Origin: Gracilibacillus sp. YIM 98692
GTDB lineage: Bacteria > Bacillota > Bacilli > Bacillales > Amphibacillaceae
NCBI RefSeq assembly: GCF_010993965.1
Contig: NZ_WIXM01000006.1
Span: 66,529 to 130,528 of the forward strand
Length of the DNA: 64,000 bases
Direction of reading: 5' to 3'
Under the pieces are notes generated by a model that worked only from the letters and a program-made list of their open reading frames with translations, made no database searches and was not told the origin of the DNA. This document shows positions 6,993 to 46,514 of this stretch, one piece after another. Within the stretch, counting starts at the first letter, position 1; every line of letters begins with the position of its first letter. The translations under genes were made by a program, and so were the position numbers.

Positions 6993-7095
6993 AAAAAATC
7001 CCTTCCTCCATTCATCTTTTAAATAATGTATGAACAGAGCAGACGAGATATGCATATAGTACTTTGGTCATATCAATTTTTTATAAAGTGATAAT

Positions 7096-7237
7096 CCCAT
7101 CAGTGGGGGGCGCTTTACCACACTGATGGTTAGCGAAACTTATTAGGGTGCTAGCATCCTTTATCCCCCACTTGTACTTTTTTCATTATTCTTAGTCTTG
7201 AAGTGGGGTTTTACGGACGATTGTTCACCGTGATAAA
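7096..7237 (-). repeat. Two-hairpin dispersed repeat, copy A
   Basis: A 142-base repeat with two more copies at 45723-45850 and 45899-46032. On the minus strand it starts TTTATCACGGTGAACAATCG and has a long imperfect hairpin: TTATCACGGTG...CGTCCGT against ATCCT...GCACCCTAATAA, extended by CCCCACTT/AAGTGGGG. A second hairpin, CATCAGTG/CCACTGATGG, follows. The first 77 bases are also the last 25 codons and stop of ypjA. No coding capacity of its own is evident. Confidence 0.85.
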
Positions 7238-45697: not shown

Positions 45698-45722
45698 CCT
45701 TATGTATCATAAAGAGAAACTT

Positions 45723-45850
45723 CCATCAGCAGGAGTTTTCTTCATGGTTAGCGTTACTTATCAGGGTGCTAGCGTCCGTTATCCCCACTTATCCTCTTTT
45801 CATTATTCTAAGTCTTGAAGGGGCTTACGGACGATTGTTCACCGTGATAA
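45723..45850 (-). repeat. Two-hairpin dispersed repeat, copy B
   Basis: 128-base copy of the family at 7096-7237. On the minus strand: TTTTATCACGGTGAACAATC, GTCCGTAAGCCCCTTCAAG, ACTTAGAATAATGAAAAGAG, then AAGTGGGGATAACGGACGCT, and AGCACCCTGATAAGT. The second hairpin (CATGAAGAAAACTCCTGCTG) is poorly kept. This copy lies wholly between genes, 26 bases upstream of the sigX promoter. Confidence 0.85.
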
Positions 45851-45882
45851 AAATACCACAGTATGTATAACTGTGGTATTTT
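45850..45882. terminator. Terminator between repeat copies B and C
   Basis: Perfect 11-base stem AAATACCACAG/CTGTGGTATTT with T-runs on both strands. Probably the end of the resD-to-ECF transcript on the minus strand. Confidence 0.75.
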
Positions 45883-45898
45883 TATCAAGTGTTACTTT

Positions 45899-46032
45899 CA
45901 TCAGTGGTTTTCTTTATCCCCACTGATGGTTAGCTATACTTATCAGGGTGCTATCGCCCGTTATCCCCCATCGATTCTTTTTCATTACTCTAAGTCTTGA
46001 AGGGGGGGACGGACGATTGTTCGTCGTGATAA
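45899..46032 (-). repeat. Two-hairpin dispersed repeat, copy C
   Basis: 134-base copy, 48 bases from copy B and in the same orientation. Minus strand: TTTTATCACGACGAACAATC, GTCCGTCCCCCCCTTCAAGA, CTTAGAGTAATGAAAAAGAA, GATGGGGGATAACGGGCGAT, AGCACCCTGATAAGT, then a CATCAGTGG/CCACTGATG hairpin. The first 43 bases are the last 13 codons and stop of the ECF gene. Confidence 0.85.
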
Positions 46033-46514
46033 AAGAGTGAAAAGATGTAAGTACACGTCGGGTAAAGAATGATCATAAAAAGGACATTACCTATGGCATG
46101 AAAGGTGTCGAATGGTAATCCAGCCATATAATAAGGAAGAAAAGCGCCGGAAAAACTGAAGGTTCCGACTGTTAATAATAAACCATATAAGTAGGCACTA
46201 ATAAAGCCGAAAATTATCGACATCGCAAACCGAATTTTTTCGTGCTTTATTTTGCCTATCCATCCAGATAAAACACCTATTAACCCCCATGCCAAAGTTT
46301 GCCATATTGTCCAGAATCCTAACCCCAATACTAAATTGCTTACAAAAGTCGTTACAACAGCTAATAATACGGCATATATCGGACCTAAATAACCGCCACA
46401 AATGATTAGCAGACTAGTAACAGGCTGAACATTTGGAATCCATTGAAAAGCGATCCGACCAACTACTGCTAATGCAGCCATAAGAGATATAATCGTTAAT
46501 TTTCGCGTTTGCAT
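45990..46514 (-). CDS. ECF transporter S component (vitamin/cobalamin-type) with repeat-derived tail
   Basis: Substrate-binding membrane subunit of an energy-coupling factor transporter, 174 residues, six predicted helices, starting MQTRKLTIISLMAALAVVGR. The upstream gene encodes a DUF4430 (transcobalamin-C-like) lipoprotein; that pairing is typical of cobalamin uptake modules, so B12 or a relative is the likely ligand (inference). The last ~14 residues, YHDEQSSVPPFKT, come from dispersed repeat copy C. Two bases separate it from the lipoprotein gene. No riboswitch is visible. It takes the place where resE lies in B. subtilis. Confidence 0.8.
   Translation of the reverse strand: MQTRKLTIISLMAALAVVGRIAFQWIPNVQPVTSLLIICGGYLGPIYAVLLAVVTTFVSNLVLGLGFWTIWQTLAWGLIGVLSGWIGKIKHEKIRFAMSIIFGFISAYLYGLLLTVGTFSFSGAFLPYYMAGLPFDTFHAIGNVLFMIILYPTCTYIFSLFYHDEQSSVPPFKT

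Follow-up and report, generated by a model that had tools for sequence, protein, structure and literature searches.

A TTTAT-ended, two-hairpin mobile repeat in Gracilibacillus and many other Bacilli

The closest known system to the repeat analysed here is bcr1 of the Bacillus cereus group, a chromosomal repeat with a TTTAT motif and conserved stem-loops that has been termed MITE-like. A second system for comparison is IS200/IS605, in which the peel-and-paste logic combines subterminal hairpins, a fixed short target at the left end, the absence of inverted repeats and the re-use of ends in tandem copies. In the passages cited here, bcr1 is given a length of 147–167 bp (PMC2267715), an average of 39 copies per strain and a distribution restricted to the B. 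cereus group (PMC6542083), and REP sequences are defined as tagged palindromes of 20–40 bp (PMC3733652).

In this study, we analysed a repeat with three copies in a 64-kb stretch of Gracilibacillus sp. YIM 98692 (the whole stretch is referred to as the window). Like bcr1, with which it is compared by description and not by sequence homology, the element is approximately 155 bp long, dispersed in tens of copies and bounded by TTTAT at both ends. Unlike bcr1 as described, it spans many Bacilli, with a covarying fold and cargo; no B. cereus plasmid was among the blastn matches of the element queries. It shares with non-autonomous derivatives of IS200/IS605 the subterminal hairpins, the lack of terminal inverted repeats, the fixed left target and the re-use of ends in tandem, and differs from them in that neither a Y1 gene in its own genome nor an insertion sequence (IS) with the same ends was found. 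The high-copy, palindromic and intergenic character recalls REP/BIME repeats with TnpA-REP, from which the element is distinguished by its 155-bp length, its two long hairpins and the lack of Y1 in its own genome. Short non-autonomous repeats are an ordinary kind; what we have not seen in print is such a wide distribution, a fold that covaries and an RNA family as cargo; none of these was found in the open-access papers searched, where the family itself was not found outside papers on bcr1. In the MITE review PMC10969869, no passage on bcr1, Bacillus or IS200 was found.

Limits and fold of the element

All three copies in the window are read on the minus strand. Copy 1 (7083–7237, 155 bp) and copy 2 (45709–45851, 143 bp, with part of hairpin II missing) have TTTAT at either end, and copy 3 (45884–46033, 150 bp) has a 5′ TTTAT and a 3′ end decayed to TTGAT. 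The sequence-only reading had recognized a three-copy repeat with common blocks, and all three copies and their blocks are present in the sequence, but the limits that it assigned fall short of the TTTAT ends and the true elements are wider. These limits are sharp and the flanks unrelated in an alignment of 32 copies with flanks from the same genome (three from the window and 29 others). TTTAT itself occurs at 0.36% of window positions. The cross-genus covariance model (R2) identified no further copies in the window, its sole extra match being an antisense shadow cast by copy 2. The interval between copies 2 and 3 contains, at 45853–45883, a short palindrome without mismatches (ATACCACAG...CTGTGGTAT) and then T's, an arrangement that is terminator-like by eye.

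The layout is TTTAT, hairpin I, linker, hairpin II and TTTAT; the minus strand reads TTTAT, then CACGG, and closes with a second TTTAT. In copy 1, the left (5′) TTTAT on the target side (7233–7237) and the right (3′) TTTAT (7083–7087) were placed by sequence and by empty sites in relatives. In hairpin I, covariation marks CGTCCGT (7213–7219) as an arm of the central helix (helix 2). The predicted fold and covariation together support the inner helix of hairpin I, formed by CCCCACTT (7201–7208) and its partner AAGTGGGG (7166–7173; helices 3 and 4), as well as the CCATCAGTG (7121–7129) and CACTGATGG (7097–7105) arms of hairpin II (helix 7). Common to the 32 aligned copies are TTTAT followed by CACGGTGAACAATCGTCCGTAAG, the inner CCCCACTT/AAGTGGGG helix and ACGGACGCTAGCACCCTGATAAGTTTCGCTAAC; in the 3′ part, the CATCAGTG/CACTGATG hairpin is followed by AAGTCTC(T/A)C and TTTAT. 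The pairings proposed from the sequence (TTATCA/TGATAAG with GGTG/CACC, CCCCACTT/AAGTGGGG and the CATCAGTG/CACTGATG hairpin) are correct, and the CGTCCGT/ACGGACG helix and the TTTAT ends had been overlooked. The 5′ feet of the hairpins carry GTAA and CTAA with almost no variation.

Copy 1 folds with a z-score of −3.5 when treated as RNA; its two DNA strands give −3.1 and −3.4. Among 26 copies from 24 genomes, the covariation check that had been proposed revealed compensatory double changes, in which at least one sequence has both sides changed and the pair kept, at 24 of 41 predicted pairs. Shuffled alignments equalled this in 0 of 500 cases on every measure, a figure that is not a probability because shuffles do not preserve relatedness; when partners were slid by 1–3 columns, which does preserve it, paired cells fell from 94.7% to 36–47%. 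Copies at the class level also covary, for example CGTCCGT/ACGGACG versus GGGCAGT/ACTGCCC. RNAalifold predicted hardly any structure from the initial alignment of own-genome copies, to which relatives had yet to be added. Own-genome copies have a mean identity of 82% and their departures at paired columns are mostly one-sided, and therefore selection seems to act on moving lineages and not on resident copies, which look like a decaying population. G.U exceeds A.C by 37 to 14 of 1066 cells in alignment A4, with 12 of the 37 G.U in one column, and by 39 to 33 of 1200 cells in 31 class copies; G.U is thus not clearly favoured, and nothing points to RNA, as opposed to DNA, as the folding molecule. 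The element core had no Rfam match in the window at the gathering score and none around copy 1 up to E 5.

Copy number, spread and insertion sites

Searches of the genome and its relatives, as the sequence-only reading had suggested, show that the three copies belong to a large population. With one copy as query, blastn found 41 places in the own genome (weakest E 2.5e-25), well outside what chance would give. A covariance model built from the 32 own-genome copies (R1) gave 104 matches at E ≤ 0.001, of which 83 reach at least 60 bits; because the fold is nearly palindromic, some weak matches may be antisense shadows, as seen elsewhere. Within the family, R1 matches 103 of 159 genomes, the own genome counted in, which belong to 33 of 46 genera; across the class, R2 matches 51 of 398 sampled genomes, from 30 of 145 genera. 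An exact-pattern scan of named genomes returned at least 120 stretches; the genera among the matches listed include Sporosarcina, Lysinibacillus, Psychrobacillus, Rummeliibacillus, Domibacillus, Cytobacillus, Neobacillus, Peribacillus, Priestia, Oceanobacillus and Gottfriedia. Phage and viral collections gave no element match at the sensitivity used, and plasmid records gave none with copy 1 as query. Other queries matched 3, 5 and 3 plasmid records, among them Pseudalkalibacillus, Peribacillus, Cytobacillus, Niallia and one labelled Klebsiella. The latter (CP079755.1, labelled as a Klebsiella grimontii plasmid) contains an end fragment of the element and is possibly mislabelled or a mixed assembly. 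Local duplication, to which the finding of three copies only, with no relatives and no covariation, would have pointed, is ruled out by the own-genome copy number and the matches across the family, and each of those three points is contradicted.

The element is mobile, with precise insertion that leaves TTTAT on both sides. Two relatives, G023 and G033, are largely collinear along a 400-kb stretch in which R2 identified 18 copies, three in G023 and 15 in G033. Four of these entries represent two loci common to both genomes, seen from either side (one with an internal deletion in G033), another four could not be placed between both flanks and one (L300) is unclear. The remaining nine are empty in the other genome, where the orthologous place spans 832–1074 bases per 1000 bases of flank. 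Ten alignments were inspected (the nine empty sites and one locus common to both genomes), and three junctions are readable to the base (L333, 8999; L319, 16469; L337, 15537); at the other six empty-length sites the junction alignment is too poor to read. The clean junctions have a single TTTAT in the empty site and TTTAT flanking the insert on either side, with decay at L337, where the TTTAT of the empty site has become AATAT and the left TTTAT of the insert ATTAT. For the window copies themselves, relatives are approximately 75% identical and the spacers too diverged for such a comparison. Tandem copies that overlap by exactly 5 bases occur in six genomes (G031 and G143 in the family; G066, G424, G441 and G464 in the class), which would fit the insertion of one copy at the end of another.

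The suggestion of a MITE-like or hairpin-mobilised element thus holds for a mobile, hairpin-bearing repeat, given its copy number, empty and filled sites and spread over many Bacilli, and not for a MITE in the strict sense: the 5′ end CACGGTGAAC is no inverted copy of the 3′ end AAGTCTC(T/A)C, and TTTAT is repeated directly. One TTTAT in empty sites versus two in filled sites resembles a target duplication, but a fixed element end of TTTAT would look identical. Both ends are TTTAT in 47 of 72 own copies and 35 of 47 copies from relatives; deviant ends mostly do not match each other, which is a weak guide to duplication versus a fixed end.

Linker cargo and the Bacillaceae-1 RNA

Separate searches for the two halves of the element (5′ and 3′) in 379 sequences (2.4 Mb) yielded 262 normal pairs, 48 pairs with a wider gap and 150 unpaired halves. 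Seventeen of the 48 wider-gap pairs were inspected and represent elements of 171–344 bp with extra hairpins in the linker. Rfam identified a Bacillaceae-1 (RF01690) cassette in six of eight loci (E 1.1e-4 to 4.5e-13), in either orientation and twice in two loci; the remaining two (L202 and L279) carry other inserts. Among 18 further loci, RF01690 was found in 10 (16 matches) and was absent from eight, including the long forms of L237 and L252. Nineteen Rummeliibacillus loci contained 21 RF01690 matches, 15 of them inside the element; one, next to a 3′ half, is truncated at the edge of its locus, and five lie apart. These loci were chosen for carrying the element, and the nested fraction is therefore biased upward. 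Composites have multiplied as units: forms of 217–222 bp in Rummeliibacillus are 93–95% identical, 317-bp forms in Psychrobacillus 95% and 278-bp forms in Cytobacillus, outside the Rfam scans, 98%.

Bacillaceae-1 is listed as an RNA motif of Bacillaceae (PMC2864571). Although it nests in long forms of the element in either orientation, it is a separate 67-nt family that is also free-standing; it is cargo and not the element itself. Of 250 class genomes, 55 contain it, including some (G172 and G319) in which R2 has no match. Among 30 Bacillaceae-1 loci fetched, it is nested in the element only in L421. Bacillaceae-1 is known from the vicinity of rRNA operons, and two of the loci (L425 and L426) lie beside 16S rRNA genes. 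The own genome has at least 18 Bacillaceae-1 matches, none of them in the window. Some lie near contig ends (G000:C15:88–154, G000:C26:115–182 and G000:C9:595–660), which is expected if they stand beside collapsed repeats such as rRNA operons.

Candidate mechanisms and implications

Our main reading, to which we assign a probability of roughly 0.45, is that this is a non-autonomous TTTAT element moved in trans as folded single-stranded DNA in an IS200/IS605-like manner. The element encodes nothing, and its folded strand would serve as the recognition signal. A Y1-type transposase might bind hairpins I and II, cut on the 3′ side of the left and of the right TTTAT, and join the excised strand 3′ of another TTTAT ("peel and paste"). 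The linker between the hairpins takes up extra hairpin cassettes, often Bacillaceae-1, which are then carried as cargo. The resemblance to peel and paste lies in the fixed left TTTAT, the TTTAT at the right end, the lack of inverted repeats, the GTAA- and CTAA-footed hairpins and the re-use of ends in tandem; we infer from it a single-stranded intermediate, a Y1 enzyme and any guide role of GTAA and CTAA.

The anatomy expected of an IS200/IS605-like passenger, an option named by the sequence-only reading, is accordingly present, but the partner transposase was not found, which weakens the Y1 model. No Y1_Tnp was detected in the own genome; Y1 occurs in 119 of 159 family genomes, and of the 40 genomes without Y1, the 20 listed include 15 with the element. 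Element-like ends were seen at none of 30 Y1 loci, where R2 gave just two matches (E 0.21 and 1.7). No IS with ends like those of the element was found among seven IS groups, five of which have a T-rich target and a right end GATT. Several candidates for an autonomous version or partner were rejected. The half-search yielded two pairs with gaps above 350 bases: at L377 in G061 (gap 725; 1308–2136), the 5′ and 3′ halves are separated by an IS200-like transposase gene, which was read as an IS inside a variant copy, and the L208 pair (gap 6391) was taken as chance. Weak 3′-end matches beside an IS605-type gene at L348 looked coincidental. Another multi-copy repeat of approximately 600 bp with roughly inverted ends was observed at G023:C1 ~2188520–2189211, with at least seven similar places in the part of G033 fetched; it has no credible ORF as a partner and looks like another non-autonomous element of that genus.

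Strand placement is compatible with insertion into the lagging-strand template, without constituting proof. Of 180 copies with usable gene context, 117 lie on the locally G-rich strand. By its GC skew, G033 has its origin at about 2.85 Mb and its terminus at about 0.45 Mb, and the element has leading-strand sense in 24 of 30 copies (30 of 31 matches, an antisense shadow in L404 being omitted) and in nine of 10 where neighbouring genes disagree. The 24/30 bias is indistinguishable from the 73% coding bias (p 0.54), which also weakens the Y1 model, and in the 400-kb stretch of G023 one of three copies has leading-strand sense.

The Y1 model is further weakened because target duplication or a recombinase crossover would equally leave TTTAT on both sides. 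A double-stranded circle moved by a site-specific tyrosine or serine recombinase with TTTAT as the crossover would account for the single TTTAT of empty sites, the lack of inverted repeats and the tandem arrays with a common TTTAT, and a route resembling site-specific recombination is among the proposals for B. cereus repeats (PMC6542083); we nevertheless regard this explanation as unlikely, as it leaves the compensatory conservation of a strand-wide fold unexplained. That conservation, together with the stable fold, is what a structured RNA would provide, either copied into TTTAT sites via an RNA intermediate or retained for an RNA function, and the structured-RNA option was kept because the pairing covaries. 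The nesting of an Rfam RNA family in the element agrees with it, as does one account in which transcripts contained roughly half of the bcr repeats of B. cereus, with all 18 families pooled (PMC3446304). However, G.U has no clear advantage over A.C, the decay of resident copies affects single sides of pairs, and there is no orientation preference towards genes, with 57 of the 180 copies running with both neighbours and 55 against both; an RNA-based origin is therefore improbable in our estimation.

The same gene contexts bear on a further explanation, a cis-acting regulator or terminator that ordinary genome processes have duplicated; this would fit the mostly intergenic location (12 copies overlap an ORF of at least 80 aa) and the terminator-like hairpin II. 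All four contexts are occupied, since 38 more copies have the upstream gene against and the downstream gene with the element and 30 have the reverse arrangement, and this argues against a cis-acting RNA. Absence of nine of 18 copies from the orthologous place in the collinear stretch and the divergence among own-genome copies also stand against this explanation, which we consider very improbable.

Transposition in trans as single-stranded DNA can be extended to a broader and more tentative proposal, which we hold with some doubt, that an old, TTTAT-specific folded mobile family carries RNA-like cassettes. The Bacillaceae-1 "sRNA" would then be a mobile linker cassette, inserted in either orientation and spread by its carrier, whose own movement would depend on a candidate single-strand transposase acting in trans.

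What appeared to be a three-copy curiosity thus becomes a mobile family of many Bacilli, with a fold backed by covariation and with empty and filled sites, and it raises the question of which enzyme moves the element. Part of an Rfam "sRNA" family travels as cargo of a mobile element, which calls for caution in RNA discovery by conservation. It is also a testable possibility that bcr1 may be one branch of a wider and older family.
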